Shown here one piece after another: positions 4,043 through 21,415 of a DNA stretch of 21,955 bases. Numbering within the stretch: position 1 is the first letter of the stretch; every line of letters starts with the position of its first letter. The notes beneath the pieces are model-generated. The model saw only the letters and a program-made list of their open reading frames with translations. It was not told the origin of the DNA and did not search any database. The stretch is from positions 1 through 21,955 of the IMG/VR virus record IMGVR_UViG_3300037225_000132, one strand, 5' to 3'. A program made the position numbers and the translations under genes. The DNA comes from a virus.

Positions 4043-4890
4043 CGCTGCCGCCTTTGCGCCTGTATAATTGCCGCCCCAAGTATTTCAAGTTGATCAGCGG
4101 TCGGGGTAGTCAGGCTGGAATAATTGACGTTGACAACGGTTGAGGGGGTGTAGTTTGCATTTGGACCGGGGGCGGTTAATCCTAAGTTTCGAGCACCACC
4201 CCCGCCGCCCACAGAGGGAACGACGGGTGCAGTAGCGCCGCCGCCGAGTAGACCCCAATCATTGGCAGTCTTGACTAACTGTTGTCCTACGCCGGGAACG
4301 TTGCCAAATAGACCGTACCCTATCAAAAGGAGTAATTGCTTAAATTCCTTCATGTTGATAAGAACATAAAGCGCCGTGAGTGCTGCAACCACCGCCGTTA
4401 TTGGAGCGACTACCGCGCCAAACCCAACCGCCAGGCCAGGGAGAAGCATCTGGAGCGTACCGACCACAGTGATGACCTGACCGACCACGGTAACCAGTGG
4501 ACCAGCCACCGCTAGAACTCCCACAATGGTTATGATTGTCTGCTGGGTTCCCAGGTCTAATTTTGCAAACCAATCGACGGCTTTAGCCAGGCCGTCTACC
4601 AGTTTCAATAATCCGGGCAGGGCGGCGTTTATGATTGGCAAGAACGCCATTGCCAAATTAGTCTTGACCTTCTCCAGGCCATCCGCAACGGGCTTCAATG
4701 CCGCTGCCACTTCTTTATTCCCCTTAACCAATGCAATCAAACCAACAACGGGGAGAGTAAAAGCGGCGGTCATTCGCATACCGAGCGAAGATATTTTCTC
4801 CCCCATCTCACGCAAATTCATCGTTATATTTTTGGTAACTGGGGTGAGATTATCTTTTCCAGTTAGAGTGATTACAACATCGTTAGACAT
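4039..4890 (-). CDS. Tape measure protein, unusually short
   Basis: At 283 aa it sits just after two tail-chaperone ORFs and before the tail-tip gene, the standard tape measure position. It has an N-terminal helical section (NLREMGEKISSLGMRM and onward) and long hydrophobic, helical membrane-like stretches at about 115-140, 150-165 and 170-195, as is typical of tape measures. The C-terminus is Gly- and Pro-rich (VGGGGGARN). The 'KNITMNLREMGEKISSLGMRMT' type start is common in phage tail length proteins. Most siphovirus tape measures are 600-2000 aa. If about 0.15 nm per residue holds, this one predicts a tail of only about 40 nm. Start ATG 4890 overlaps the preceding ORF by 8 bases, without a strong Shine-Dalgarno. 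Confidence 0.75.
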   Translation of the reverse strand: MSNDVVITLTGKDNLTPVTKNITMNLREMGEKISSLGMRMTAAFTLPVVGLIALVKGNKEVAAALKPVADGLEKVKTNLAMAFLPIINAALPGLLKLVDGLAKAVDWFAKLDLGTQQTIITIVGVLAVAGPLVTVVGQVITVVGTLQMLLPGLAVGFGAVVAPITAVVAALTALYVLINMKEFKQLLLLIGYGLFGNVPGVGQQLVKTANDWGLLGGGATAPVVPSVGGGGGARNLGLTAPGPNANYTPSTVVNVNYSSLTTPTADQLEILGAAIIQAQRRQR

Positions 4891-6307: not shown

Positions 6308-6724
6308 TCACCATGTAAATCGCAATTTAATTCCAGGAATGACAAACCGCCAGCCGACATAATCAATCCCGGCATAGTTGAACTGCATCCAGGTATATGA
6401 CGGGGGGCCGAAATTCTGAACCGTACCGTTCAGCGTTGGCTTTTTCAACAATGCCAGCGCAACCCGGTCAACGTAAGGAATAACTTCTTGATAGGATCGC
6501 TTCGAGTCCTGCCGGGCTACCATCACGTCCAGGGTCAGGGTATGCAGAGCTTTGACATCACCGACGCTTTGCTGTTCATATGTTCCCGAGTTGGGATAGC
6601 ACAAGGTAAACGGTTCGATGTTTTCAGAATCAGGTATTTGATCCTGAGCATCTCGGATACCGTCAACCGTACGCATAATCGCCTGCACCGCTTTGATTAC
6701 ATCCTCTAACGTTGGGTTAGCCAT
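6308..6724 (-). CDS. Tail completion / tail terminator-like protein
   Basis: A 138-aa protein between the head-tail connector and the major tail protein. It begins with a helix (PTLEDVIKAVQAIMRTV) and continues with a beta sheet region and VDRVALALLKKPTLNGTV, the helix-strand pattern of tail-terminator or minor tail proteins of the lambda gpU / HK97 gp10-neighbour type. AAGGA lies about 10 bases before its ATG (6724), which shares an A with the stop of the upstream connector gene (TAATG). The function is assigned by position and fold pattern. Confidence 0.55.
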   Translation of the reverse strand: MANPTLEDVIKAVQAIMRTVDGIRDAQDQIPDSENIEPFTLCYPNSGTYEQQSVGDVKALHTLTLDVMVARQDSKRSYQEVIPYVDRVALALLKKPTLNGTVQNFGPPSYTWMQFNYAGIDYVGWRFVIPGIKLRFTW

Positions 6725-7563
6725 TAGAGATAATTCCTTCGCAGAGGCGCGAGCATCTTTTTCACATCCGGATCAAGTTCAGGTATCTGAACCATCTGCT
6801 GGCCCATTTCAGCGGAGCCGGTTACGCCAAACGGAGCGTCTTTGCGCTTGAATAATCGCAGTGCCTGGAGGATGCACGCCTCATGCGCGAGCGGGTTGAC
6901 CGATACTGAGTATCCGAACTTGCCTGTGAGCTTTACGCCTTTTTTGGAAAGGGGGAAAAGCATCTGGGAATAAGGCGTAAGCTCAATCTTGGTATAAGGT
7001 TTACCGTCCAAACTTGCGTTATAGGGCATAAGGTCAAAGTCAGTCGCCGCCCATGCGCTGTAGGACTGGGCGCCGCCAATATCGGTCGCCAGGGTCGTCA
7101 GCGATACGATATCATCTGTGCGCAAGCAATCCTCATCTCCAGCCGTGTAATAGCGGTCTTCGTCGTTGGTATTCACCCAAAAGCGGCGCCCGGTTTCGTG
7201 ATCGATTAGTCGACTTATCGCCGTGATGACACTCTCAATTGTGGCATCATCGACCGTATCGCTCGTATCAATCAGGGTAATGGTTGCCCCGGCGCTTTCC
7301 TGAGTGGGTGCTGCCGTCAGGGTGATAACCGAATCGGTTGGTGGAACAGTTGTATCAATCAACCAGGTCGCATTATTTCCAGTCTGCCCGGCCCCAGAGA
7401 TACTCAGTATGCGGGCATCCCTGAACTTCATTAGCCGTTTGGCGCTGTCCGTGATGGTCTTACCGCTGTTGGAAAAGGTCAAGGTAGCAGCGGAATAAGA
7501 CCGCTGAGAGAAATAGCGGTCTTTGAATTCGCTTAAAGTGACATAACCGTTGACGATTGCCAT
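6724..7563 (-). CDS. Head-tail connector (gp6-like), with insert
   Basis: The start used is ATG 7563 (279 aa, MAIVNGYVTL), because it overlaps the stop of the preceding gene as TAATG; the open frame extends upstream but that part reads like a shadow of the neighbouring gene. Residues 1-20 (VTLSEFKDRY) and the later helix 'TIESVITAISRLIDHETGRRFW', with a YYTAGDEDCL section, match the DNA-packaging head-tail connector family (gp6-like) that closes the neck. The segment between (about 25-90), rich in Thr/Gly/Ser with beta-strand character, looks like an inserted small domain. The last helix (HEACILQALRLFKRKDAPFG) is also typical of the family. An ATACTCAGTAT dyad lies inside this gene (7400-7410), as does a second copy (6903-6913). 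Confidence 0.68.
   Translation of the reverse strand: MAIVNGYVTLSEFKDRYFSQRSYSAATLTFSNSGKTITDSAKRLMKFRDARILSISGAGQTGNNATWLIDTTVPPTDSVITLTAAPTQESAGATITLIDTSDTVDDATIESVITAISRLIDHETGRRFWVNTNDEDRYYTAGDEDCLRTDDIVSLTTLATDIGGAQSYSAWAATDFDLMPYNASLDGKPYTKIELTPYSQMLFPLSKKGVKLTGKFGYSVSVNPLAHEACILQALRLFKRKDAPFGVTGSAEMGQQMVQIPELDPDVKKMLAPLRRNYL
6903..6913. repeat. Dispersed dyad ATACT-S-AGTAT, copy 1 (coding)
   Basis: ATACTGAGTAT within the connector gene. One of four exact copies of the pattern ATACT-S-AGTAT. The simple expected number for this window is about 0.01. Confidence 0.65.
7400..7410. repeat. Dispersed dyad ATACT-S-AGTAT, copy 2 (coding)
   Basis: ATACTCAGTAT within the connector gene, embedded in GAGATACTCAGTATGC (7397-7412), which is identical over 16 bases to the terminase copy (17060-17075). 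Confidence 0.65.
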
Positions 7564-7931
7564 TATTCGAGCACCGTGAAATACAGCGCCCCGGCGCCGC
7601 CATTGCCACCCTGAGCAACAACGACTTTGAACTGACCAATTACGGGAATATGCTGTATGGCATCCGTGCCAACCACTCCCGTTGCACCGCACCCAGAGCC
7701 ACGGGGATATTTTACAAGGGTCGATGTTCCCGCGTCTGTCAAGGTCAGGATGGCTTTAGACTGAACGGAATTTTCAACGGTGATGGTCAAATCCCCGCCG
7801 GTTGCGATAGTTCCGGGGACGTACACAACCTCTTCCAGGTAGCCGTTTACGCCTACCTCAGATTGTTGGACGGTTGCAGCTCCGTTGGTATCGCAAACGA
7901 TTGGTAATTTTATGATTCGGAAAGCGCCCAT
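7563..7931 (-). CDS. Small head or decoration-type structural protein
   Basis: A 122-aa beta-rich protein. Its start ATG 7931 is one base after the stop of the 52-aa gene, with AAAGGA just upstream, and its stop overlaps the connector ATG (TAATG). It shows the pattern of Gly/Val/Thr strands with 'GYLEEVVYVPG' and 'GDLTITVENS', typical of small phage virion proteins between capsid and connector. It may be a head decoration or neck component; a specific family is not recognised. Confidence 0.5.
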   Translation of the reverse strand: MGAFRIIKLPIVCDTNGAATVQQSEVGVNGYLEEVVYVPGTIATGGDLTITVENSVQSKAILTLTDAGTSTLVKYPRGSGCGATGVVGTDAIQHIPVIGQFKVVVAQGGNGGAGALYFTVLE

Positions 7932-7932
7932 A

Positions 7933-8091
7933 TTATTTTCCTTTGGCGGGTGCCGGTTTCTTCTCGGGTTCTACCGCAACCAATTCAACGACGCCTTTTT
8001 TCAATAGCGCCTGAACCTCTTTTTCATCGGCAATCCAAACAACATCGCCGGCTTCGTAGCCTTCATGATCTTTTAGAAATTTGACTTTCAT
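7933..8091 (-). CDS. Small conserved phage protein, 52 aa
   Basis: A compact 52-codon ORF (begins MKVKFLKDHEGYEAGDVVWI, ends in a Lys/Pro/Ala-rich tail). The ATG at 8091 has AAAGGAT about 8 bases upstream and its stop is one base from the next ATG. Short proteins with 'MKVKFLK...Y.AGDVV.V' and an 'L.KKGV.E' ending are frequent in phage head operons, often with the size and fold of small beta proteins. No function is established. It lies directly downstream of a perfect 10-bp hairpin, so its translation or transcript ends may be controlled there. Confidence 0.72.
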   Translation of the reverse strand: MKVKFLKDHEGYEAGDVVWIADEKEVQALLKKGVVELVAVEPEKKPAPAKGK

Positions 8092-8107
8092 GGAATTTTA
8101 TCCTTTG

Positions 8108-8138
8108 GGCGTGCGGGCAAGGAGACAACCCGCACGCC
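8108..8138 (-). promoter_or_regulatory. Perfect 10-bp intergenic hairpin before a ribosome binding site
   Basis: GGCGTGCGGG (8108-8117) pairs without mismatch with CCCGCACGCC (8129-8138), loop 11 bases. On the minus strand the 3' arm ends two bases before the AAAGG ribosome binding site of the 52-aa gene. No T-run follows, so it is not a standard terminator. It may be an mRNA processing or stability element separating the beta-helix gene from downstream genes, or a site read at DNA level. Confidence 0.7.
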
Positions 8139-8155
8139 GAGAGAGTTGAAAAAGT

Positions 8156-9079
8156 TTAGACGTGCGTTGTTTCCACCGCGCCGGTCGTGCCGTTGACAAC
8201 ATAGTTCCCGATGACACGAGCCGCCGGGGAGTTGGTGACATCGAAGGCGTCGCCACCAGACACGAAGTTGTTGACATAGAACGCCAGGCCAGCCAAGCCG
8301 GTTTGAGCGGAATGATCAACCACACCATAGGAAGCACCATAGATGGTGTTCCTGCGCACCAGGGTGCCATCACTCAGGTAGGCATGGTTCAGGAAACCGG
8401 AAGTTGAGGCATAGATCATGCAATCCTCAACCAAACTTTGGTTGAAGTTTCCGCCAGCCGTGCCAACATTGATTCCAAGCGCCGGGGTTGCAGTGTCGCC
8501 GCCCACGTGACAATTGCGCAGGGTGATACCACCGCCGGTTACAATTTGCAGGCCGCCGGTTGTGCGATTGACAAAGGCAACATTTTCGAAAATCGAGCGG
8601 AAACAAATCGCCAGGTTCATCGCCCAGGCTGCGCCAGATCCGCCAAACTGCATGTTGAAAAGGTTCAATCCACGCACGCCGGTTGAAGCAACTGTGTCAG
8701 TGGTTGACGCTCCCTCAACACGAGCGATACCGGCCCCATTGCCGCGAGGATCAGCGCCAATCCCGATAATGTCGCAGTAATTCGGGAGAGCGGTCAGGGC
8801 GGAGTAAGCCGTCGCTGTACCCTGGACATAAATCCGGTTGCGAACATAAACGTTCGTTGCCGCCATTGCCAGGCGATAGGCTTCGGCTGCGGTGATAGCC
8901 GTCGAAAGCTCATCGAACGGTCTCAGCCAGGAACTGCCATAATAAGTCGACAAACCAACGATGTTATTGACGAAATATTCCCGGCCGGGATAATCGCCAG
9001 GGTATCCGTGTGCCGATCCACCATCAATCAGATCGGACAAGCGCGATACGCCTTTTTTCATGATATAGGGAGTGTTCAT
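8156..9079 (-). CDS. Right-handed beta-helix structural protein next to the capsid gene
   Basis: A 307-aa protein. Residues of about 130-300 show short repeating turns (GITLRNCHVGG, SLVEDCMIYAS, TLVRRNTIYGA, FYVNNFVSGG, ARVIGNYVV) with aligned N and hydrophobic residues, the hallmark of pectate-lyase-like beta-helix proteins. The N-terminal 60 residues (YPGREYFVNNIVG, then STAITAAEAYRLA) are a separate region. It follows the major capsid gene and has GGAG about 9 bases before ATG 9079. Beta-helices in phages are usually tailspikes or depolymerases at the tail; one placed directly behind the capsid suggests a head fibre or capsid decoration. No catalytic residues can be assigned. Function is inferred. 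Confidence 0.7.
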   Translation of the reverse strand: MNTPYIMKKGVSRLSDLIDGGSAHGYPGDYPGREYFVNNIVGLSTYYGSSWLRPFDELSTAITAAEAYRLAMAATNVYVRNRIYVQGTATAYSALTALPNYCDIIGIGADPRGNGAGIARVEGASTTDTVASTGVRGLNLFNMQFGGSGAAWAMNLAICFRSIFENVAFVNRTTGGLQIVTGGGITLRNCHVGGDTATPALGINVGTAGGNFNQSLVEDCMIYASTSGFLNHAYLSDGTLVRRNTIYGASYGVVDHSAQTGLAGLAFYVNNFVSGGDAFDVTNSPAARVIGNYVVNGTTGAVETTHV

Positions 9080-9092
9080 TTTGATTGTCTCC

Positions 9093-9116
9093 GGGGGAGG
9101 CTGTTACACCTCCCCC
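9093..9116 (-). promoter_or_regulatory. Perfect 8-bp hairpin between capsid and beta-helix genes
   Basis: GGGGGAGG (9093-9100) pairs exactly with CCTCCCCC (9109-9116), loop 8 bases. On the minus strand its 3' arm abuts the GGAG ribosome binding site of the beta-helix gene, and its 5' arm looks like a decoy Shine-Dalgarno. No T-run follows. It may protect the 3' end of the abundant capsid mRNA after processing, or reduce transcription of the next gene. Confidence 0.65.
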
Positions 9117-9152
9117 ATCTAACTTGATTTGAAAGAAACGATTTAGGCGAGA

Positions 9153-11435
9153 TTACACGCCCACGTTGTAGGTTTCGGCAGACGCATAAGCATCCCGATA
9201 ACCCAGGCCCCAGCGAGTGAGAGCAACCACTTCCCAGGAATCCGCATTGGCAATGCGGGTGGTTTCAATGGTCATCAGCCGCTTGTAGGCAATTTTCCAT
9301 TGATCCCAGCGGACGGCGATGATACCGCCTGTGGTGTTGTTGCCGACGGTCGTGAGATCAACTTTGCCGGCGGTGTTGGCCTTGCGGGATGGCTGCCGCC
9401 AGTGCATGAAGTAGGACTGGTTGATGGGGTAATTCCAGAGCCGGGCCAGGACGCCGCTTTCCATAGTCGCATTCGTCCAGACATCCTTTGTCTTGACGGT
9501 TGCCATCTTGAGCGAGGCGAAGTAGACATTCGGGTCAACGATAAACGCGCATTTTGCAACGTCGGCGGCGATACCATTCAAGCCCAGTTTGCGGACGGTT
9601 TCCAGGTAATCATCCTCGGACAGAGCGCCAGAAGCCGACCGCCCGTTGGCAATGCCGATCTTGCGGAAACCATTTGTCAGCAGAAACAGGGTAGTAGCTG
9701 CACCGGAATAGGTCGTGCCGCCAATATCGTTGATGTTGCTGGCAGCAGCGGTATCGCCATCAATGACAACATGCTCCATCTGTTCAGCGCCGGAAAGCTG
9801 GAGCTGGCGCCGGAGATTGGGAACGTAACCGATCAGGTTATCCTCGGTGAGTTCGCCGGAATAGATATCCCGCGCGCCCATTTTGCCGACCGTGATATTT
9901 TTGTTCAGGGTTCCAATCGTTGAGGCGGTCACGGTGGCGGCGGGGATATGCAGCGTAGAATCACCGGCGGCAACTTCGGCAACTTTATACCAGGTAGGAT
10001 CGGTGCTTTCCAAAGGCCAGGTCTCGGATGCATAACCGTCCGGGATGGTCTCGGATGGGATTTTCGCCACAACAGTGGGGGTTGACCGGATCGCCTCCCA
10101 AAGTTGATTGGAGTAGGCGGTGCCAACCCAATCCGAACCGATGTTCGTGTAAATATAGTTCGGGTCACCATCGTTGGTTTTGAAGGCGCCTTTGATGGCC
10201 TCATCAGTCAAGTCGAGGCCGATAGCGGCTTTCAGTGCGGCCTGAGCATAGGCTTTGGTGTACACGGATTCCTTGTTTCCGCCATCTCCACCCAGGCGGG
10301 CTACCTTCAGCGCCAGGGCTTTATAAGCTGAGACGCTTACCGGAGCCATTTTATCTGACTTGGCCGCGTGCAGACTGTTCTGGAGGCTGATCATCAATCC
10401 CAATTCAGCCGCGTCCAGGGCATCGTACTTGGCGGTATCGGCCCAATTGTTGACGCGGGGCATTCCACCTGGAAGGCGGAATTTGGAGGCCCATTCTTTG
10501 TTGATCTTATCGGCAGTCTCGGTGACCGCCTTATCAACGGCGGCCTTGATAGCCGTATCTTGCACGGCTCTCGCCTTTTCAGCCGCCTCTACTTCTTTAG
10601 CTTTGGCGGCGTCGCGTTCGTCCAATAACCTAATCAAATCTTTTTCGTCCATTGTAAACTCCTTATGCTTGGGTGATTGATTACCGGTGTTGGCCGCCGC
10701 AGCTCCCGCCGCCTCTGGGTCATCTGCCGGGATAACGGGCATTTGCATACCCGCATTTTCAAAGTGAGATTTCATAACGGGCATAGCGACGGCGTAATTG
10801 TTTGCAGGCTGCCGCTTGCCCTCTGCGTCGATCAGTGATAATTCACAAACCGGCCAACTCTGGATAAATCCATCTTTGGCAACTCTTACCAGGTGCGCAA
10901 TGCTGCCACTGGAGGCACGCGCTACACCGTTTTTAGCCGCGTCCCAAATGCGCTTCGCCAGGTCTTTGGTGCGGTCCAAAATCACCCGATACCAGTGGCC
11001 GTCCTTATCGGTGCGGGTGTACTTCGCCATGCCGATTTGCACCGGCTCGCCCATTGGCTTACCTTCGGGCGAATAGCCGTGATAATAAAACGCCGGAATG
11101 GTTTTGTAGACGTCCAAATAAGCCTGGGTGTTTTGATTGAAATACTGACCGTCCGTGTCCTTGCCATCCAAAGGGCCGCCAAAGGGCATACCGAGTACGT
11201 CCAATTCCCAATCGCCGGCGGCCTTGACCGTAAGTCCGAATGACTTTAGGGACTTTATTTCGATCTTGCCATCTTTCAGCATCTGGGCAGCCTCTTCGAT
11301 GGTCTTTGCCTTTCCGGTCAGGGTTGCATAGCACATTGCAATGGCAGACGGCTCATCTTGCCCACCGTCCATAACGGACTGCTTACATTTGTCCATATCC
11401 GCCCATTGGCTTTCGGGTAAATTGTCGTAGGGCAT
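9153..11435 (-). CDS. Prohead protease - scaffold - major capsid protein fusion
   Basis: Start ATG 11435 (760 aa) has AAGGAG four bases upstream; an in-frame TTG at 11465 lies inside a hairpin and is unlikely. Residues 7-45 are a small Cys-containing domain (MDKCKQSVMDGG...CYATL) found ahead of some phage proteases. Residues about 60-220 form a HK97-type (U35) prohead protease with the family's His in AFYYHG (H119), Ser in RASSGS (175/176) and acidic CELSLID (E198). Residues about 265-325 are a charged coiled coil, the scaffold-like delta region. From about 335 to 760 it is the HK97-fold capsid subunit. An internal ATG with a strong ribosome binding site is at codon 262. The protease, scaffold and capsid, normally separate genes, are thus in one frame. 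Confidence 0.85.
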   Translation of the reverse strand: MPYDNLPESQWADMDKCKQSVMDGGQDEPSAIAMCYATLTGKAKTIEEAAQMLKDGKIEIKSLKSFGLTVKAAGDWELDVLGMPFGGPLDGKDTDGQYFNQNTQAYLDVYKTIPAFYYHGYSPEGKPMGEPVQIGMAKYTRTDKDGHWYRVILDRTKDLAKRIWDAAKNGVARASSGSIAHLVRVAKDGFIQSWPVCELSLIDAEGKRQPANNYAVAMPVMKSHFENAGMQMPVIPADDPEAAGAAAANTGNQSPKHKEFTMDEKDLIRLLDERDAAKAKEVEAAEKARAVQDTAIKAAVDKAVTETADKINKEWASKFRLPGGMPRVNNWADTAKYDALDAAELGLMISLQNSLHAAKSDKMAPVSVSAYKALALKVARLGGDGGNKESVYTKAYAQAALKAAIGLDLTDEAIKGAFKTNDGDPNYIYTNIGSDWVGTAYSNQLWEAIRSTPTVVAKIPSETIPDGYASETWPLESTDPTWYKVAEVAAGDSTLHIPAATVTASTIGTLNKNITVGKMGARDIYSGELTEDNLIGYVPNLRRQLQLSGAEQMEHVVIDGDTAAASNINDIGGTTYSGAATTLFLLTNGFRKIGIANGRSASGALSEDDYLETVRKLGLNGIAADVAKCAFIVDPNVYFASLKMATVKTKDVWTNATMESGVLARLWNYPINQSYFMHWRQPSRKANTAGKVDLTTVGNNTTGGIIAVRWDQWKIAYKRLMTIETTRIANADSWEVVALTRWGLGYRDAYASAETYNVGV
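10650..10664 (-). promoter_or_regulatory. Internal ribosome binding site and start within the capsid fusion
   Basis: On the minus strand AAGGAG (plus positions 10659-10664) is followed by a 6-base spacer and ATG at 10652-10650, in frame with the fusion ORF at codon 262 (MDEKDLIRLL). Such a good site inside a coding region is unlikely to be incidental. It would yield a separate 499-aa scaffold plus capsid protein, leaving the protease version as the minority product, much as lambda makes Nu3 from within gene C. Confidence 0.78.
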
Positions 11436-11449
11436 AGAACTCCTTAAAC

Positions 11450-11492
11450 AAAAAAGCGCAAACAATTTTCCTTTTCAGGAATTTGTTTGCGC
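11450..11492 (-). terminator. Terminator-like hairpin in front of the capsid gene (attenuator candidate)
   Basis: Minus strand: GCGCAAACAA (11492-11483) pairs perfectly with TTGTTTGCGC (11465-11456). An inner TTCC/GGAA stem and loop TGAAAA complete the hairpin, and TTTTTT (11455-11450) follows. This is a canonical intrinsic terminator shape in the direction of the late genes. It ends 5 bases before the capsid ribosome binding site, leaving no room for a promoter between them, so it can only act as a leader attenuator or partial read-through terminator. Confidence 0.78.
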
Positions 11493-11590
11493 CCTAACTC
11501 ACCGGCCGGCGCGCTGACTGCTCGTCCTAGCGCGATCCCTCGCGTTATTCCATAGCAGGTTACTTGCACAATGTAAAATCAGTTTACATC
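11493..11590 (-). ncRNA. Structured leader of the capsid gene
   Basis: About 100 bases without ORF between the sponge-like gene and the terminator hairpin. In minus-strand order it holds: ATGTAAA/TTTACAT (11583-11589 with 11571-11577), CTGCT/AGCAG (11554-11558 with 11518-11522) enclosing CGCGA/TCGCG (11531-11535 with 11540-11544, four-base loop), and a GCGC-rich stretch able to pair with GGGCGC at the foot of the terminator. Several pairings exclude each other, as in attenuators or riboswitches. No known riboswitch class is recognised. Confidence 0.45.
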
Positions 11591-11591
11591 A

Positions 11592-11602
11592 ATACTCAGT
11601 AT
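11592..11602. repeat. Dispersed dyad ATACT-S-AGTAT, copy 3 (intergenic)
   Basis: ATACTCAGTAT, extended to the 13-bp perfect dyad AATACT-C-AGTATT (11591-11603), in the spacer before the capsid gene. It overlaps the -10 of a weak promoter candidate. Shares CAAATACTGAGTA with the copy at 18477. Confidence 0.7.
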
Positions 11603-11626
11603 TTGTCATGCTGTCATTATGTGCAA
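11598..11626 (-). promoter_or_regulatory. Weak promoter candidate overlapping the ATACT-S-AGTAT dyad
   Basis: Minus strand TTGCAC (plus 11621-11626) and AATACT (plus 11598-11603) are spaced by 17 bases, 3/6 and 4/6 matches to sigma-70 boxes. The -10 is half of the 13-bp dyad AATACT-G-AGTATT, so a repressor binding the dyad would block it. A transcript from here would have a ~155-nt leader before the capsid gene, ending in the terminator-like hairpin. Confidence 0.35.
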
Positions 11627-11628
11627 CA

Positions 11629-11829
11629 TTACGGTTTTGGAAAAACGATATTCGCTCTCACGAAACAATCTTTAGCTTCAAGCAGTTTACGCATACCCGC
11701 TGATTTTTCCGGGCCGTCTGGCAAGGTATCCTCAAGGTCATGCGCGAGGTCGTAAAACTTTTTGCTGATAGTCTGCAAACCTACCGGCAGGTGTTTGTAC
11801 TCGAAAAACTGAATGGTTGTACTTGGCAT
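11629..11829 (-). CDS. Acb2/Tad1 hairpin-family-like protein (candidate cyclic-nucleotide sponge)
   Basis: A 66-aa protein with an excellent ribosome binding site (AAGGAG, 6 bases before ATG 11829). Its pattern, FEYKHLPVGLQTISKKFYDLAH, then DTLPDGPEKSAGMRKLLEAKD and a final C-VRA, is the one I recall for small phage proteins annotated with the Acb2/Tad1 hairpin domain: an aromatic/His segment, a helix with LQ..S..F..LA, the turn LPDGPEK, and a second helix RKLLEAKD.aVRA. Members of this family that have been tested bind cyclic oligonucleotides or cyclic ADP-ribose molecules and blunt CBASS or Thoeris immunity. Others of this size have no tested function. The similarity is from memory, not from a search. 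It sits in the late operon between the Cys-rich peptide and the capsid leader. Confidence 0.62.
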   Translation of the reverse strand: MPSTTIQFFEYKHLPVGLQTISKKFYDLAHDLEDTLPDGPEKSAGMRKLLEAKDCFVRANIVFPKP

Positions 11830-11847
11830 TTTATTCTCCTTTTCTGT

Positions 11848-11958
11848 TTATTTCTCGTTGTACAGAATAGTACAAATCTCGTACAATTCACACGTATCAC
11901 AGCACTGACTATGATCTTTGCAATGCCATCGAAATAGCCGAGAAAGAAAGCGCCTCAT
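11848..11958 (-). CDS. Cys-rich 36-aa micro-protein
   Basis: ATG 11958 lies two bases after the stop of the 72-aa gene, with AAAGG about 7 bases upstream, and the stop is 18 bases before the next ATG. The peptide begins with a basic MRRFLSRLFRWH and continues with C13 and a Cys/His cluster (CKDHSQCCDTCELYEIC), which could bind zinc. Codon phase and spacing fit the surrounding gene chain. Repeated GTACAA words here are part of this coding frame. Family not recognised. Confidence 0.6.
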   Translation of the reverse strand: MRRFLSRLFRWHCKDHSQCCDTCELYEICTILYNEK

Positions 11959-11960
11959 AT

Positions 11961-12179
11961 TTACGCCTTTTCAATCCAGTGCCAGGTTGAGTCTCTCCAT
12001 GTTTCACTGAATTCGGTATTGATGTTCATAAAGATACCGCCACGTCCATCAATGGGAAGGGAAAGAACAAAAAGCGTAACCAGTCCCTTTTCAGCATTCT
12101 GAACATCAATGACAATAGCGGCTCTGTGAACCATTCCGCAAACAAAGTGAACCATTCGCCCAACTGTTAGACCATCCAT
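11961..12179 (-). CDS. Conserved small phage protein, 72 aa
   Basis: Starts ATG 12179, directly after the TAG of the gp10-like gene. The pattern MDGLTVGRMVHFV...HRAAIVIDV and a C-terminal TWHWIEKA is typical of a very widespread but uncharacterised small phage protein (VGR.VHYV ... HRPAIVV ... TWHWPE). It appears to be a small beta-barrel-like domain. Often found near head genes; role unknown. Confidence 0.7.
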   Translation of the reverse strand: MDGLTVGRMVHFVCGMVHRAAIVIDVQNAEKGLVTLFVLSLPIDGRGGIFMNINTEFSETWRDSTWHWIEKA

Positions 12180-12662
12180 CTAATTTAGTCCTACCTTTTT
12201 TAGCAATCTATTTATCCACGCCTGATAAATCTCGGTTATCTCTTTTTGTTTCGACAACGCCACGTCGAACAGTTTGCGCCAGCCAATGCGTGCCATTGCT
12301 TTAGCCTGTTTTTGCCCAATAACATGCTTTGCATAACTCGCCCTATTGCCAATCACTGTTGCCCAGCTCGCCGGCCGGCTACGAACATAAAACTGTTTGC
12401 CCAATACTTCAGACGACCCGGTGTTTTTGCTCTCGGATATTTGCATACCCGTTCCCCGGATGTAGTAAGGGACTGGGGGCATATTGGCGTCTGTCTCCAT
12501 CGGGTAAGATCGCAGACCCCGGGTATCGAGGATGAGGTTTGCTGATTCCTCGCCTGCCGCTTGCCAGGTGTCCTTGATTTCGTCTTTCAGCTCATCGAAC
12601 TTCTTTTCGAGTTTATCAAGGCCCTCGATTTTTATATGGATCGCAGTGTTTTCGTCTGCCAT
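12180..12662 (-). CDS. HK97 gp10-like / minor head-tail protein
   Basis: The 160-aa version from ATG 12662 is preferred: GAGG lies upstream and it shares TAATG with the MuF gene; the open frame extends 13 codons further. It has an N-terminal helix pair (IEGLDKLEKKFDELKDEIKDTW), a middle beta section and YVRSRPASWATVIGNRASYAKHVIG, then a C-terminal helix after GWRKL. This matches the gp10-like tail completion/minor virion family found next to MuF and capsid genes. A different position than the usual one (after connector) is noted. Confidence 0.6.
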   Translation of the reverse strand: MADENTAIHIKIEGLDKLEKKFDELKDEIKDTWQAAGEESANLILDTRGLRSYPMETDANMPPVPYYIRGTGMQISESKNTGSSEVLGKQFYVRSRPASWATVIGNRASYAKHVIGQKQAKAMARIGWRKLFDVALSKQKEITEIYQAWINRLLKKVGLN

Positions 12663-13480
12663 TAGATACCTCGTATATTGGTTGAACTGGCCTTCCAGCA
12701 CCGGCAGCGAACATGATACGGCGGGCGGTATATCGGTTGTCCGGTCTTTGGATTGGTTGCAAAACTGTCACCGTGTTTTACTTTCTTCCCGTTCAGCGGC
12801 CCGCACAACGGGCAAACCCGATCATCATTGTTCGTGTACCACGTATCAATTACCTGAACATCGGGATATTCTTTTACCAATCTATCCCCGGCGATATCCT
12901 GGCCGGCGGCATAGGCACTGGTTACCTCGGTCGTCGCAATCATCCCGGCGCGTTGTTCGTTGAACGGGAGAAGCGACCGAAGATCACCCATTGTCATACC
13001 GGGCGTTTCCACGAATTGAGCAACGGCGGATTGAACGGCTTGCAGACTGGTTGCGTCGACCTTGCTTATCAGTTGCCCGGCGTATTGCCTTGCCCAGTTT
13101 GCCGCCTCGCTATTGGTCAGTGTCCAATCGATGCCAATTGGGACATCTACCCCAAACAACGATACACCCGACCGGGCGGCTTGTTGAACCATTGCCAGAA
13201 GTTGCGCCTCAAAGAAGGCGTCGTTATCTTCGAGCGCCATTTGTATCCAGGCTGGATCAATGATTGCTTTGCGCCCGGTCAACATTTCGAGAATGCGGCG
13301 AAGATTGTTGAATTGGCGAACAAAGCGATATTTCAGCAGCCTTGTGAGACGTCTTTCAAGCCGCATCTTTTCCAGGTGTTTTGGCTCGCGTGGATCGCGC
13401 CCTGCCTTGATCGCCGTGGCAAGAACAGGAGAAGCCAGGGAGATGGCTCTTATAAGGTTTGCTTTGGCAAGTAGGGTCAT
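12662..13480 (-). CDS. MuF-like minor head protein (SPP1 gp7 type)
   Basis: A 272-aa protein that would join the portal vertex inside the head. The N-terminal 100 residues are basic and helical. The C-terminal MuF domain has the motif TTEVTSAYAAGQ (183-194), then DTWYTNNDDRVCPLCGPLNG (212-231) and PPYHVRCRC (253-261), with C223, C226, H256, C259 and C261 as likely metal ligands. ATG 13480 is preceded by AAAGGTGA, and its end couples to the gp10-like gene. Normally the portal gene is directly upstream; here micro-ORFs and two appendage-like genes are. Confidence 0.88.
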   Translation of the reverse strand: MTLLAKANLIRAISLASPVLATAIKAGRDPREPKHLEKMRLERRLTRLLKYRFVRQFNNLRRILEMLTGRKAIIDPAWIQMALEDNDAFFEAQLLAMVQQAARSGVSLFGVDVPIGIDWTLTNSEAANWARQYAGQLISKVDATSLQAVQSAVAQFVETPGMTMGDLRSLLPFNEQRAGMIATTEVTSAYAAGQDIAGDRLVKEYPDVQVIDTWYTNNDDRVCPLCGPLNGKKVKHGDSFATNPKTGQPIYRPPYHVRCRCWKASSTNIRGI

Positions 13481-13481
13481 T

Positions 13482-13520
13482 TCACCTTTGAGGGTTTTTC
13501 AAAACACGAATTCTTAACAT
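13482..13520 (-). CDS. 12-aa ORF with strong ribosome binding site
   Basis: AAGGAG (plus 13529-13534), 8 bases before ATG 13520, is one of the best sites in the window, yet the frame (MLRIRVLKNPQR) stops after 12 codons, one base before the MuF ATG (TGA-A-ATG). It may be a leader peptide that couples translation to MuF, or the start of a gene whose body was lost. Confidence 0.35.
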   Translation of the reverse strand: MLRIRVLKNPQR

Positions 13521-13647
13521 TTTATTATCTCCTTATTGTGTCAATCAACATAATCGGTCATAGTATCACCTTTAGCCACATCGTGCCCTGGTCGATCCCC
13601 GGACTGCATCGGTCACGAGGTGGAAAAATCATGTTTTACAAGTCCTG

Positions 13648-13746
13648 TTATCGAATGCGTGCATCGTCAATCATTTTCCTGACCGCCAGGTGCGCCAGAC
13701 AAAGGCGGAAAGCAACAGCCAAAACGACAACGGCGAGGTAGATCAT
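13648..13746 (-). CDS. 32-aa single-membrane-span micro-protein
   Basis: ATG 13746 follows GGTGAG and the stop of a 14-aa frame. The first 20 residues (MIYLAVVVLAVAFRLCLAHL) are hydrophobic with one Arg, a clear membrane span; the remaining 12 (AVRKMIDDARIR) are charged. It contains the Leu-Ala CTG-GCG pair in frame like the neighbouring genes, mildly supporting coding. It resembles small membrane peptides that phages use in lysis or regulation, but no family is recognised. Confidence 0.45.
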   Translation of the reverse strand: MIYLAVVVLAVAFRLCLAHLAVRKMIDDARIR

Positions 13747-13797
13747 AATCTCACCGTCCCTCGGTTTCGATCATTTTTGGATCGGTTTCAACCATGT

Positions 13798-15285
13798 TTA
13801 TCGGGCCAAACTAGCGTCAGCGTCAACAAAATATCGCACCCGTCTATGTACCTCACTGTTCCAAACCGCGGCAGCCGCAACAGCTAAAGTTCCGGGCGTT
13901 TTGCTCGCCTTTGAAACATAAACCTTTGATCCCATCAGTAAGGCGCGCCCACTTCCGTCAATATTTGCCCAATTGTCCACGCTTACAGCAACGTCGGGTA
14001 TATAAACCAGGTTTGCCACTCGACCACCACTACCTGCCCAACGCCAACCCCACTGTGCCTTGCCGTTGGGAGTATCAGCCTCACAGGCGACATCAGTGCC
14101 CTCGCCCTTATAACTCGCTTTGGTAAATATTTCCGCATCACCCGGCCACATTGCAATATAGGCCGCATAAATGTTTACGTCAACAGCCCATGTAATTGCA
14201 TGAGCAACACTCAAACCATTTGCAGGAGTCATTTCATAGGTGTGTACAATGTCCGCTATTTTGGTGGGCGTTATATCTGGATGTGTCAATGTTGTTGTCC
14301 TGACTATTTTGGCGCTTGCCGTACCACCAAAAAACACATTATTAGTCAGGGTTTTTCCTGCTCCGTCTACCGAAACAACGAGAGATACGTCGCTTTCATA
14401 TCCGTGTCCTGTACCAACAAAGACATTGGTTGATCCCCCAATAACAGGAACGCAATTAATAGCCATGTCCTGTTCTGATGTTGCGGCGCTCCAAATAGAA
14501 GCAACTTTTTTTAGAATTGAAAAGCCACTATCCGTTGCCACAGATGCCGCATTGGAATACCCAAATCCAGCACAATAGCCCCTGGCGGCAGAAGAACCAG
14601 TATTTTTGTATCCCGTTACCGTGACCCTGATTACATGCGCCCCTGCTGCTATGCCCTCCATGAGAGTTATTACGTCAGCGGCGGTATAGGCAAAACCATC
14701 AATCACTCGATCCGTGGGATTGAGACTACCGCCATTCGCAACTAACACGGTATTAGCTACTACAGCCGCATTAACTAAATCTTGAGCTGTAGAAAGGGCC
14801 GACGCTAGAGTATTATCACCGTCAATAGTCACCAGCAATATTCCGGCGTTTGATGCAGCCCCATGATGCATGTATAAGTTCGTCATTCCCGCCGGCGTTG
14901 TAAACTCACAATAGGCTCCCGCCGCTGTGGCATACCTATAATTTCCGCCGTAATATGTGGCGTTACTTCCAAGTGTACACGTTCCGCTTTTTGTTACGCT
15001 GCCATCCTCTTGATTTGTGCCAGCGCACCCCTTCCGGATTTCAGTGTCAGTCATTTTTCTAATGCCGGTAGAACCGGTTGGGGTTTGAAGAGCAAATCTT
15101 TGGGTGTGATATAACCTTCCTCCTATACCAACAGCCAGTATATATGTGTCAGCCGCCTCCTTGAATACGGCCACATCGGTTCCGAGCGAGGAAAACAAAT
15201 TTAATACAGCGGCATCGTGATCTACAGTAGCCGCCCCTCCCCCCAACACTCCCGCCGCTCTACAAGCCGCTAATGGATAGGGCAT
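13798..15285 (-). CDS. Appendage-type structural protein, 495 aa
   Basis: The start chosen is ATG 15285, with GGAGG six bases upstream and the previous stop just before it; the frame is open to 15381 but that section is a shadow. The protein is Ala/Gly/Thr/Ser-rich and beta-like, without charged helical domains: a Gly-rich N-terminus (ACRAAGVLGGGAATVDHD), a middle with TYYGGNYRYATAAGAY, and a long end section (NIYAAYIAMWPGDAEI, WRWAGSGGR). Such composition is usual for fibre, decoration or adhesion proteins. It sits between terminase and MuF, where the portal gene would be expected, which is odd. No family recognised. Confidence 0.5.
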   Translation of the reverse strand: MPYPLAACRAAGVLGGGAATVDHDAAVLNLFSSLGTDVAVFKEAADTYILAVGIGGRLYHTQRFALQTPTGSTGIRKMTDTEIRKGCAGTNQEDGSVTKSGTCTLGSNATYYGGNYRYATAAGAYCEFTTPAGMTNLYMHHGAASNAGILLVTIDGDNTLASALSTAQDLVNAAVVANTVLVANGGSLNPTDRVIDGFAYTAADVITLMEGIAAGAHVIRVTVTGYKNTGSSAARGYCAGFGYSNAASVATDSGFSILKKVASIWSAATSEQDMAINCVPVIGGSTNVFVGTGHGYESDVSLVVSVDGAGKTLTNNVFFGGTASAKIVRTTTLTHPDITPTKIADIVHTYEMTPANGLSVAHAITWAVDVNIYAAYIAMWPGDAEIFTKASYKGEGTDVACEADTPNGKAQWGWRWAGSGGRVANLVYIPDVAVSVDNWANIDGSGRALLMGSKVYVSKASKTPGTLAVAAAAVWNSEVHRRVRYFVDADASLAR

Positions 15286-15286
15286 G

Positions 15287-15853
15287 TTATGCCTCCGCGA
15301 ACCAGTTGCAAATGCCCGAAATAGCGCTCGCCACGCTGGTCGTGATCTGTAACTTCTTGTTGACCGTTGCCCCTTTGACATATCCCCGCGGGGTGAGCTG
15401 GACCGTTGAATTTGCGCCCATGTAAATCGAGAAGATGGTTGAGCCGCTCTCGGTGAGGATGTTGACCGTGCAGGCGGTAACCACCGACACGATAATATCC
15501 ATCGCCACGGCCTTGAGGCTGGCTCCGGGTGTGGCCGTCAAATCCACCGGCGTCGCGCTGCAATCTGCCGAGCTGAACGGCGTCCGAGTCACCGTCTGCA
15601 CCGGCCCGGCATCACTCGCCGGCTGGGTCGTCTGGTAGAACGTGCCCGTCACTGCCAGCGACCCGTTCAACTTTGTCCAGATAGCCGAAAGCCATCCCCG
15701 AACACCCGCCCCGCCCGCCGGCATCGCCGTAGGACTGGTAATATCTGTCCCGTTTTGCGCTGCCGCCGCCTTCGATGGATCAATTACAACACCATCCGCA
15801 TCCACCGGCACAACCGGTTGTGCATACTCGTTATTCGTCAAAAGTCTTGTCAT
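15287..15853 (-). CDS. Small structural protein, 188 aa
   Basis: ATG 15853 has AGGAGA about 7 bases upstream and lies after the terminase stop. N-terminal section PVVPVDADGVVIDPSKAAAA followed by a Gly/Ala/Thr-rich beta region (VNILTESGSTIFSIYMG, TVQLTPRGYVKG) resembles the end domains of phage fibre or head decoration proteins. Its stop is one base from the next ATG, so it pairs with the 495-aa gene. Function inferred from composition. Confidence 0.5.
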   Translation of the reverse strand: MTRLLTNNEYAQPVVPVDADGVVIDPSKAAAAQNGTDITSPTAMPAGGAGVRGWLSAIWTKLNGSLAVTGTFYQTTQPASDAGPVQTVTRTPFSSADCSATPVDLTATPGASLKAVAMDIIVSVVTACTVNILTESGSTIFSIYMGANSTVQLTPRGYVKGATVNKKLQITTSVASAISGICNWFAEA

Positions 15854-15874
15854 TTTATTGTCTCCTAAAATAGT

Positions 15875-17677
15875 TTACTGACCACGCCGCCGCCAGGTTA
15901 AATTTGTCGCGTAACGAACTGAGTCAATAGCATGATTCGCGCGATCCGGGTAGTCTGCAATCAGGTCACCGTCTACCGTACGCTCAAATTCGTAATCTAA
16001 GAACTCCTCAGCCGAATAGGGACACCGTTCGTTGTCAATTACAATCGCCTTGAGCGATGCCAGCCACTTCATGCTGTACTTGACGCTTTCAGGCCCCTTC
16101 TCCGCGCCACGAGCTGAAGCACCATACTCCCGGAAGTCTGCCACGCTCTTAGGTTCTGCACTATCACAAATCAAGGTATCCTCAGGTGTCACGCCCAGGC
16201 CCGCCTCAATCACCTTGCCTTTGGTATCTCTGATGCCATAAAGGACAGTGTATAAATCCCTATTGGACATCTTCCACGCCCGATATTCGCCAAAGACATA
16301 GAGTGTCATGCGTGCCGCGTCATAATGCACCCGTGAGTAGTGCGCCGGATCAGGGTAGAAGCCCCAGTCAAGTCCATGCGTCACCCGGTCGAATTGCGCT
16401 ATCTCTGCGTCTGTGATCTTGCGAATGACCACGTTCTCGAACACCTGGCCGCCGGTGCCATTAACGATACCCAGGTACTCGTGGTCATAAGCAGCCGGGT
16501 TGACGTTCTTGAGATGTTCCGCCTCTTCCAGGAACGTCTTACCAAGCCATTCCACGGGGACGGTCGTGTAATCGCTCTTATGCTGATACTGCGTTGCCTT
16601 GGGGATCTGGACGTACTTATTTGCCCAGTTCTGTGAGGTGCGCGGTGGGTTGAAGTTCTTGAAAATATAGGCTTCGTCACCACCCCTGATCACACTTTGC
16701 TCAATCGAGCGAACCTGCTCGGGACCATGAAAACTATCCAGCTCCTCAAACCACAAGATGCCGATATAGCCGAATACCGGTTTGATTGATTTGATTTTCA
16801 ACGGGTCATCGGCACCTCTGAAAAATATCCGCTGGCCAGTAGGCAAGTACTCTATTTCAAGTGGAGAGGTCGTACACTTAAACTTATCAGTCAAACCCAA
16901 CTCACCAATAGCCCATTGCAATTGGTTATAAACGCTATCTCGCAACGTGTTTGCAACCTGCCGGGTAGCAAGAGCATGAAGTTGAGGATTGTTGACCAAT
17001 AGATAAATTGTTACCAGGCTAACAAAGCTTGATTTTGTTGATCCCCGTCCCCCAAAGAAGAGATACTCAGTATGCCGATGCGCCCGGATGTCTCGGTAGA
17101 CATTGACGAACGCCGGTGCAATTGAATCAACGGGAATAGAAAGTGCAGCCGGTTCAGATTGTTCGGTTGGCGCCTTGTCCGCGAACAATTGGTTTGCTCG
17201 GCCAATCATTTCAAGCGCCTTTTGTGGGTCGTGAAACTCGATTTGAGGTCGGCCCTGCCGAGTGAAAGAAAGTTTCTTTACCAAATAGCCAAACTCTTTA
17301 AAGCGTTGCCAGTCAATGTCAACCATTTCAAGTTGAGTTTTTACTGTGCCGGTCGTCGGGTCAATGATCGGATTACCGTTTGTATCCAAAACATCAACTT
17401 GTTTGTAGATAAAAAACTCGCCGGCGTTCACCCGCGCCTGTTGAGCCAATCGAGTGAGGACCTCCTCCGCCGGCATCTGGATTTGTTTTATCTTTTCATT
17501 TATAGCCGCCTGAATATGGGGACGCTGTAAGATTTGATAGTCTGTGGTCGCAGCTCCCTTATAGTGTGCCCGGCGAGCCGCTTCATCGGCGTTCCAGGTC
17601 TCTACATACGCGTCAACAAACACGCTTTCCTTGCGTGTCAGTTTGTGCGGCGGAGAAGAGCCTGGTTCAAGCGTCAT
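15875..17677 (-). CDS. Terminase with fused small and large subunits
   Basis: A 600-aa DNA packaging enzyme. Residues about 10-165 resemble small terminase subunits: LTRKESVFVDAYVETWNADEAARRAHY (helix-turn-helix-like start) and an oligomerisation-type region ending MIGRANQLFADK. Residues about 185-600 are the large subunit. Its ATPase has Walker A GGRGSTKSS (209-217), Walker B ILWFEELD (307-314) and coupling motif KNFNPPRTSQNW (340-351). The nuclease has acidic residues D437 (HGLDWGFYPD), D505 (LICDSAEPK) and D585 (NHAIDSV). Genes are normally separate; here there is no stop or start between them and no internal Shine-Dalgarno was seen. An ATACTCAGTAT dyad lies within the coding region just before Walker A. 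Confidence 0.88.
   Translation of the reverse strand: MTLEPGSSPPHKLTRKESVFVDAYVETWNADEAARRAHYKGAATTDYQILQRPHIQAAINEKIKQIQMPAEEVLTRLAQQARVNAGEFFIYKQVDVLDTNGNPIIDPTTGTVKTQLEMVDIDWQRFKEFGYLVKKLSFTRQGRPQIEFHDPQKALEMIGRANQLFADKAPTEQSEPAALSIPVDSIAPAFVNVYRDIRAHRHTEYLFFGGRGSTKSSFVSLVTIYLLVNNPQLHALATRQVANTLRDSVYNQLQWAIGELGLTDKFKCTTSPLEIEYLPTGQRIFFRGADDPLKIKSIKPVFGYIGILWFEELDSFHGPEQVRSIEQSVIRGGDEAYIFKNFNPPRTSQNWANKYVQIPKATQYQHKSDYTTVPVEWLGKTFLEEAEHLKNVNPAAYDHEYLGIVNGTGGQVFENVVIRKITDAEIAQFDRVTHGLDWGFYPDPAHYSRVHYDAARMTLYVFGEYRAWKMSNRDLYTVLYGIRDTKGKVIEAGLGVTPEDTLICDSAEPKSVADFREYGASARGAEKGPESVKYSMKWLASLKAIVIDNERCPYSAEEFLDYEFERTVDGDLIADYPDRANHAIDSVRYATNLTWRRRGQ
17063..17073. repeat. Dispersed dyad ATACT-S-AGTAT, copy 4 (coding)
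   Basis: ATACTCAGTAT in the terminase gene, encoding HTEYL in a different reading frame from the connector copy (ILSIS). The shared word is therefore not explained by a shared peptide. Confidence 0.65.
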
Positions 17678-17691
17678 TCACTTGTCTGCCG

Positions 17692-18108
17692 CTATTGCTG
17701 CGGCCCTTGATTATTGACTTGTGCCGCCCTAACCACTTCCGCTGCAACTTTAGCCGCCTCCGCCACCGCTGTTCGCGCAACCTCCGCGGTTGATCGTTCG
17801 AAGGCCAGATCCCTGGAAGCAACGGAATTGCGCATATCATTTACCGCCTCCATAGACCGTGCGTCATGCTCTTGAAATTTAACCAAAAGCTGATTAATAG
17901 CGTTGACCACGGCAGAGTTCCGAGAGTCAAATTGATTACCCAATCCTAAGACGGTAGATTGGAAATCATTTGCCATTTTGGTAAACTTACTGACAATTCG
18001 CAAGAGAGCCGCAAATACCCCGCCGACAAGCGCCAGGGTGAATACAACGAAGATGGCTACAAAAACAGCCTGCTGCCATGCGGTATCAGGTAACGTTGGT
18101 ATGGTCAT
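17692..18108 (-). CDS. Membrane-anchored coiled-coil protein (138 aa)
   Basis: N-terminal membrane span (about 13-37, VFVAIFVVFTLALVGGVFAALL), followed by a long amphipathic helix of about 100 residues (SKFTKMANDFQSTVLG and onward, with Ala/Glu repeats). This is the outline of a membrane-tethered coiled coil and resembles some accessory holin or lysis-linked proteins, but also virion or injection proteins. It follows the 117-aa membrane protein with a 3-base gap and precedes terminase, so it is in the same transcript. Confidence 0.5.
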   Translation of the reverse strand: MTIPTLPDTAWQQAVFVAIFVVFTLALVGGVFAALLRIVSKFTKMANDFQSTVLGLGNQFDSRNSAVVNAINQLLVKFQEHDARSMEAVNDMRNSVASRDLAFERSTAEVARTAVAEAAKVAAEVVRAAQVNNQGPQQ

Positions 18109-18111
18109 GGT

Positions 18112-18465
18112 TCACTTATCCGCTGGAGGTTGCACCTGCACAAACCCAGAAGTATGCACCGTTGTGGTCAAATCAGACGCAGGTGGCTGTGCTTTTGCGG
18201 CAATGTCTCCGGCACCCTTATAGGCTCCGGTCGCCATAAATCCAGCCATCAGGCCGAAAATCACCGCCCAGAACCAGGAGGCAAAATCAATCATTGGCTG
18301 CACAGCATAGCGATAGCCAAGACCAATCACCAGGCCGACCACAAAGCCGGAGCCGGTCAGCCAATTCCCTTTTATGCCCCACTGTTTGAGATACGCAACG
18401 GCGGCGAAGATAATACCCGCCAAACCAACCAACTCTGCAAGTAACTTTACGATGTCCATTGTCAT
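18112..18465 (-). CDS. Holin-like membrane protein (117 aa)
   Basis: Three likely membrane spans: about 8-26 (LLAELVGLAGIIFAAVAYL), 37-54 (LTGSGFVVGLVIGLGYRY) and 62-82 (SWFWAVIFGLMAGFMATGAY), then a charged/Pro-rich cytoplasmic tail. This size and layout fit class I-type holins that make the hole for an unanchored endolysin such as the GH25 enzyme. ATG 18465 or 18459 (MDIV) may be used; AAAGGAT favours the second, nine bases upstream. The dyad copy at 18477 sits just before this site. It is far from the lysin gene in the window, though both lie in the same direction. Confidence 0.55.
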   Translation of the reverse strand: MTMDIVKLLAELVGLAGIIFAAVAYLKQWGIKGNWLTGSGFVVGLVIGLGYRYAVQPMIDFASWFWAVIFGLMAGFMATGAYKGAGDIAAKAQPPASDLTTTVHTSGFVQVQPPADK

Positions 18466-18476
18466 CTATCCTTTTG

Positions 18477-18486
18477 TACTCAGTAT
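18477..18486. repeat. Dispersed dyad near-copy TACTCAGTAT
   Basis: TACTCAGTAT at the stop of the HTH gene and just before the holin-like gene's ribosome binding site. One base short of the 11-bp dyad (G in place of the first A). Its flank CAAATACTGAGTA on the minus strand equals the copy at 11592. Confidence 0.5.
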
Positions 18487-18737
18487 TTGACTTCTATTAG
18501 GATAGACGAATCCCCCTCGTTTGTCGAGTTGTTAAAATCTGCATTTATGAGGCCAAGAGACACGGCAGTCGCAACCGTTGAAATAGTGTTCGCTTGCCCT
18601 AATTTACAACGTGCCTTTGAGACATACGCATAAACCGTGCGGACACAAATACCCAATTCACACGCGGTTTCTTTGAAAGACAACCCATTGGCCAGGCATT
18701 GAAGTGTTTGAGTCTCACGCGGTGATAGGTTGGGCAT
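18480..18737 (-). CDS. LuxR/GerE-type helix-turn-helix protein
   Basis: An 85-aa protein made almost entirely of the LuxR/GerE DNA-binding domain: LSPRETQTLQCLANGLSFKETACELGICVRTVYAYVSKARCKLG, i.e. the family's L(T/S)xRExxVL start, the turn and the recognition helix (VRTVYAYVSKARCKLG). No receiver or ligand-binding domain precedes it. ATG 18737 has no strong Shine-Dalgarno, so it may be coupled to a 35-aa frame upstream. Being the only visible regulator in the window, it may control late genes from the primase/holin junction. A stand-alone GerE-type domain is seen in sporulation and phage regulators. Confidence 0.85.
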   Translation of the reverse strand: MPNLSPRETQTLQCLANGLSFKETACELGICVRTVYAYVSKARCKLGQANTISTVATAVSLGLINADFNNSTNEGDSSILIEVKY

Positions 18738-21267: not shown

Positions 21268-21415
21268 ACGTTTTGCGCCTGTCTAACAGTCTCACGACTC
21301 CCTCTCACGGAAGGCGGATAGTTAAACAGGCGCAAAACGTGCGCAAAATATTTGATTGTGCAAAACAAGCGCAAGACTTCGCTCTTTAAAGCGAAATCCG
21401 CACAACCGTGAGAGG
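21268..21415 (-). promoter_or_regulatory. Structured leader with nested inverted repeats before the 66-aa/primase operon
   Basis: Stem 1: 21268-21287 with 21321-21340, 19 of 20 bases paired, loop 33 bases, its 3' arm reaching the ribosome binding site. Stem 2: 21379-21384 with 21390-21395, extendable to 9 bp with a G-U pair, nested in 21356-21361/21400-21405. Pseudoknot: 21301-21310, in the loop of stem 1, is the exact complement of 21406-21415 (10 bp). The GCGCAAAA word recurs at 21330 and 21341 (11-bp spacing). It may be a translation or transcription control RNA, or a protein-bound DNA site. Confidence 0.62.

Follow-up and report, generated by a model that had tools for sequence, protein, structure and literature searches.

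An 11-bp dyad dispersed over the late region of a tailed phage genome fragment: candidate operator or coincidence

The record IMGVR_UViG_3300037225_000132 is a linear fragment of 21,955 bases that derives from a tailed phage; the window analyzed here is the whole record. Nearly all genes in the fragment are encoded on the minus strand, in the order Prim-Pol primase, GerE-type HTH protein, holin, fused terminase, Mu-F-like head protein, phrog_1761 protein, protease/capsid region, neck protein, short tape measure, and endolysin (Table 1). The GerE-type gene, followed by the holin and terminase genes, is located directly before the late genes. The small and large terminase subunits form a single reading frame of 600 aa that encompasses the Pfam domains Terminase_2 (residues 13-172), Terminase_3 (204-403), and Terminase_3C (437-590). 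No portal gene was recognized in its usual place, between the terminase and the Mu-F-like head protein (12662-17677); the interval is occupied by two genes of unknown family (13798-15381 and 15287-15853). The protease/capsid gene produced no match in the family search and was assigned from its place in the gene order, together with a partial match (35% over 117 aa) to an L143 gene. The 66-aa phrog_1761 protein, which presumably resembles the anti-CBASS protein Acb2, has at least 578 related stretches in IMG/VR; searched by sequence against solved structures, it matched none. The tape-measure-like protein (4039-4890, minus strand) consists of merely 283 aa, so the tail would be short.

Two further repeat regions were detected. 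The segment 18901-19010, between the primase and HTH genes, has an AT-rich core of about 70 bases that is surrounded by GTGTATGGT in four copies, of which two are direct and two inverted; it is a candidate for a replication origin or an operator. Positions 21268-21340 form a near-perfect 20-base inverted repeat with a 33-base loop, next to three AAAC-GCGCA repeats. No RNA families were found in the window, and a snoRNA-like score (E 0.014, below the cut-off of the family) was treated as chance.

Table 1. Copies of the dyad and the surrounding features of the fragment
Feature	Positions	Strand	Remark
Neck/head-tail adaptor gene	6724..7563	-	Holds copies 1 and 2
Copy 1, exact	6903..6913	.	In neck gene; codons for G-Y-S-V-S on minus strand
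Copy 2, exact	7400..7410	.	In neck gene, other frame than copy 1 (I-L-S-I)
Protease/capsid-region gene	9153..11465	-	Downstream of copy 3
Intrinsic-terminator-like hairpin	11446..11495	-	Between copy 3 and protease/capsid gene
Weak sigma-70-like match ATGACA-17-TAAACT	11581..11609	-	Its spacer holds copy 3
Copy 3, exact	11592..11602	.	Spacer between 66-aa phrog_1761 gene and protease/capsid gene
66-aa phrog_1761 gene	11629-11829	-	E 8e-29
Fused small and large terminase (TerS-TerL) gene	15875..17677	-	Holds copy 4
Copy 4, exact	17063..17073	.	In fused TerS-TerL gene; H-T-E-Y, just before GGRGSTKS
Holin-like gene	18112..18465	-	Right after near copy
Near copy GTACTCAGTAT	18476..18486	.	Overlaps HTH gene stop codon and holin gene leader
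85-aa LuxR/GerE-type HTH protein	18480..18737	-	Candidate binder
Weak sigma-70-like match TCGACA-17-TATCCT	18499..18527	-	Near copy would fall at about +7 to +17
Prim-Pol primase gene	19017-21050	-

The dyad ATACT-S-AGTAT is represented by four exact copies, all at the coordinates given in the sequence-only reading, and by one near copy with a single mismatch (CAAATACTGAGTAC on the minus strand). The near copy, also reported in that reading, was confirmed, but its start is 18476 rather than 18477, the latter being the start of the 9-bp core TACTCAGTA. The copies spread over 11.6 kb (6903-18486) without regular spacing, and the center base on the transcribed-sense strand is G in four of the five. 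Two copies had been placed in coding regions, in different frames; actually, three of the exact ones are genic (two in the neck gene, at 6903 and 7400, and one in the terminase gene, at 17063), and they do occupy three different frames. The word described as common to copies 7400 and 17063 exists and is 17 bases long, not 16 (GCATACTGAGTATCTCT on the minus strand, comprising two overlapping 16-mers); by a hand estimate, the chance of finding so long a common flank within this set of copies is a few per cent. The 13-base flank CAAATACTGAGTA is indeed common to the copies at 11592 and 18476.

Is this set larger than expected? Dinucleotide shuffles yielded 0.01 copies, in agreement with the initial estimate of about 0.01 per window. 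Codon-preserving shuffles, the control proposed at the outset, in which synonymous codons were permuted across all genes (with gene starts of our choice from the ORF list) and bases were permuted within spacers, gave a mean of 0.034 copies and a maximum of 2 in 5,000 shuffles, compared to the four observed. ATACT-S-AGTAT is the most repeated 11-mer of the window and by far its best-scoring dyad. To allow for the choice of the word after it had been seen, all dyads (arms 5-6, gap 0-8) were scored in 4,000 codon-preserving shuffles. The observed Poisson score of 8.5e-9 was reached in none of these; the best shuffle scored 1.2e-6, a gap of more than two orders of magnitude, and in no shuffle did the top-scoring dyad occur four times. 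From a rough extrapolation, we estimate the chance of such a dyad at about 3 in 10,000 per window, which is not negligible when many windows are scanned.

The excess over the dinucleotide, codon-preserving and all-dyad controls supports the interpretation of the dyad as an operator. The alternative is a coincidence noticed after the fact, that is, four independent chance occurrences, three of them from ordinary codons, among the many windows and word types inspected. The all-dyad result and the partly common flanks speak against a coincidence, whereas the frequency of repeats of this general kind is in its favor: a repeated 11-mer of any sequence reached 4 copies in 7 of 1,000 codon-preserving shuffles, and comparable dyad scores, attained by other dyads, were found in about 2 of 23 other records. 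One of these dyads, that of L023, resembles a classical operator in that its copies cluster within about 330 bases.

The encoded proteins allow a synonymous spelling of the word at only three places, H-T-E-Y in the terminase and I-L-S-I and G-Y-S-V-S in the neck protein, and all three carry it (single-site probabilities 0.022, 0.011, and 0.0017); this restates the above excess in terms of codons and is not independent evidence. Codon usage or a protein motif was rejected as the cause because the three frames differ and the codon shuffles fail to reproduce the copies. Most families of regulator sites include degenerate copies, unlike the family described here: at one, two and three mismatches, 1, 3 and 27 copies were observed vs 0.45, 4.5 and 35 expected, with no excess.

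The motif was absent from all seven terminase relatives and from a comparison panel of related and GerE-carrying records, including those with GerE proteins that resemble the one in the fragment. Of the two refuting outcomes named in the sequence-only reading, absence from relatives was therefore observed in the records that could be reached, whereas an equal count in codon shuffles was not. No phage record matched the window at the DNA level, and searches with the capsid, neck, tail, primase or HTH protein found no relatives; the two nearest relatives have little in common with it apart from the terminase, which is 75-78% identical at the protein level. Because no close relative was reachable, conservation was compared at the terminase copy only. 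At the aligned site in G001, the word is lost synonymously: G001 has ATACCGAATAC there, and its spelling of the unchanged residues is CATACCGAATAC. A bait built from the shared spacer flank retrieved 89 stretches in IMG/VR, and among the 80 records searched whole, there was no family of the word, with two copies in one record, about the chance level, and no more in any other. With no family in the seven relatives, the panel and these 80 records, a common phage motif was rejected. Two individual candidates were also rejected: in L055, a baited record carrying a neck-gene relative, the motif copy is located in an unrelated coding region, and L143, with the same order of head protein, phrog_1761 and protease genes, has neither the spacer nor a site there. 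A coincidence is favored by the mainly genic location of the copies, by the missing degenerate tail and by the failure to find the word in relatives, including its synonymous loss in the terminase.

The positions of the two spacer copies, together with the excess, favor a binding site. Copy 3 reads CAAATACTGAGTATT and lies in the spacer that precedes the protease/capsid gene. The near copy shares bases with the stop codon of the GerE-type gene and is located just 5' of the ribosome-binding site of the holin gene, some 10 bases ahead of the following start codon; the remaining copies are kilobases away. Both spacer copies overlap or adjoin weak promoter-like matches on the coding strand. Such matches are no more frequent in the window than expected from shuffles, and none was found at the three genic exact copies. 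The spacer before the protease/capsid gene, taken as a whole, folds better than 200 shuffles (z -3.4). Its terminator-like hairpin is strong, with a U-run, and is located directly before the ribosome-binding site, so transcripts from upstream have to pass through it.

The LuxR-type HTH protein suggested as a possible binder is encoded in the fragment (GerE PF00196, E 7e-10) and is the only candidate regulator recognized there. Its best families are GerE PF00196 and phrog_3282, a sigma factor family, and the nearest solved chain is FixJ (E 7e-4). Given its distance from FixJ, RcsB and GerE, a binding site or specificity can be neither transferred nor predicted. For binding by a GerE dimer, moreover, a dyad of 11 bp would be short, a point against the operator interpretation.

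By a narrow margin, we opt for the interpretation of the dyad as a dispersed operator for a phage-encoded regulator, with the GerE-type protein as the best candidate, which is plausible, although we stop short of calling it probable; the binder could instead be a repressor encoded outside the fragment. In the operator scenario, a dimeric regulator would bind the two ATACT arms at sites scattered over the late region. Binding at the two spacer copies, of which the near copy would lie at about +10 of one promoter-like match and copy 3 within the spacer of another, may modulate initiation, so that lysis/packaging and capsid genes would be timed together, and the copies in the terminase and neck genes might act as auxiliary sites (roadblock, looping or titration). 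Apart from the excess, this scenario draws on the partly common flanks (17 bases for 7400/17063 and 13 bases for 11592/18476), on the promoter-like matches at both spacer copies, and on the position of the near copy directly behind the GerE-type gene, before the holin and terminase, which corresponds to that of the Ltr-activated late promoter in Staphylococcus phage phi13 (PMC13123087). The genic location of three of the four exact copies with no promoter-like match there, the lack of excess of degenerate copies, the absence of the word from relatives and GerE-resembling records, the shuffle-level frequency of promoter-like matches, and the distance of the GerE-type protein from proteins of known specificity count against it. 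We give coincidence the same weight, as an equally plausible but not favored explanation; these weights are judgements and not computed values. A more specific scenario, in which the single-domain GerE-type protein is a global late regulator that acts via exact 11-bp dyads, some inside the terminase and neck coding sequences, as a symmetric, dimer-bound counterpart of stoperators, appears unlikely.

Two other functions were considered. The word could be read by something else altogether, such as packaging, host methylation or restriction, a nucleoid protein, or recombination, of which packaging, methylation and nucleoid-type sites had been raised in the sequence-only reading. Only the dispersal and symmetry of the word speak for these functions, and none of the three ideas gained specific support. 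Other phages showed no enrichment of the word, and its copies are irregularly spaced; in a literature search with five forms of the word, there was no phage operator, nor any published use, among the matches listed. Furthermore, for a methylation site, eleven specified bases would be long. We regard this group of functions as very unlikely. Alternatively, a prophage repressor bound at the genic copies could stop transcription of the late region during lysogeny, in the manner of stoperators. As in L5-clade phages (PMC6550527), the dispersed copies are found within genes as well as between them, and the prevalence of G as the center base on the transcribed-sense strand is compatible with such an elongation block. 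However, the word is symmetric and not asymmetric, there are five copies with no promoter-proximal cluster, and the fragment contains no recognizable repressor or integrase and no sign of lysogeny, which makes a block of this type quite unlikely.

If the word is bound, it would offer a ready-made assay for a poorly studied group of phage regulators, the small GerE-type proteins encoded before late genes, and would add to the cases in which structural genes of phages contain regulatory sites. Should it be a coincidence, it illustrates how a striking family of short words may come about, and that function is not proven by codon-preserving controls on their own.

Among known systems, operators of the CI/Cro type are short odd-centered dyads that are expected to bind a dimer, and they cluster within a few hundred bases around repressor promoters. 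ATACT-S-AGTAT has the same two-fold symmetry, but its copies are strewn over 11.6 kb of a fragment in which no repressor was recognized. The 85-aa protein has the same HTH as single-domain regulators of the NarL/FixJ/GerE group, from which it is too distant for a transfer of specificity. In Staphylococcus phage phi13, the Ltr gene precedes the late promoter that Ltr activates; four direct repeats, located upstream of where transcription starts, are potential binding sites (PMC13123087). The likeness to Ltr, and to the RinA and ArpU types, lies in a small HTH regulator gene that immediately precedes the late genes and has a repeated motif beside it (PMC13123087). In phi13, however, the four repeats are upstream of one promoter, whereas the dyads described here are single and scattered, with one near copy only where repeats of the Ltr type cluster upstream of the late start; the 85-aa protein is of the GerE/LuxR type, with no Ltr, RinA or ArpU family among the matches listed.

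The stoperators of mycobacteriophage L5, to which the dyad had been likened, are asymmetric sites for a monomeric repressor, number up to 30 per genome, and are oriented with transcription (PMC6550527, PMC9283540); the monomer that binds them has two DNA-binding domains (PMC9283540). An assignment to this family was not borne out: asymmetry defines stoperators (PMC9283540), and the word is a perfect odd-centered dyad. As for the other features of stoperators in cluster A phages (L5, Bxb1, Trixie, TipsytheTRex), the 21,955-base fragment has four exact copies and one near copy; in orientation, the word is symmetric save for the center base, which is G on the sense strand in four of the five; and no immunity repressor that would bind the sites and block elongation was recognized in the fragment. 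What the two have in common is that a short word of the repressor type recurs across a phage genome, both within genes and between them (PMC6550527).
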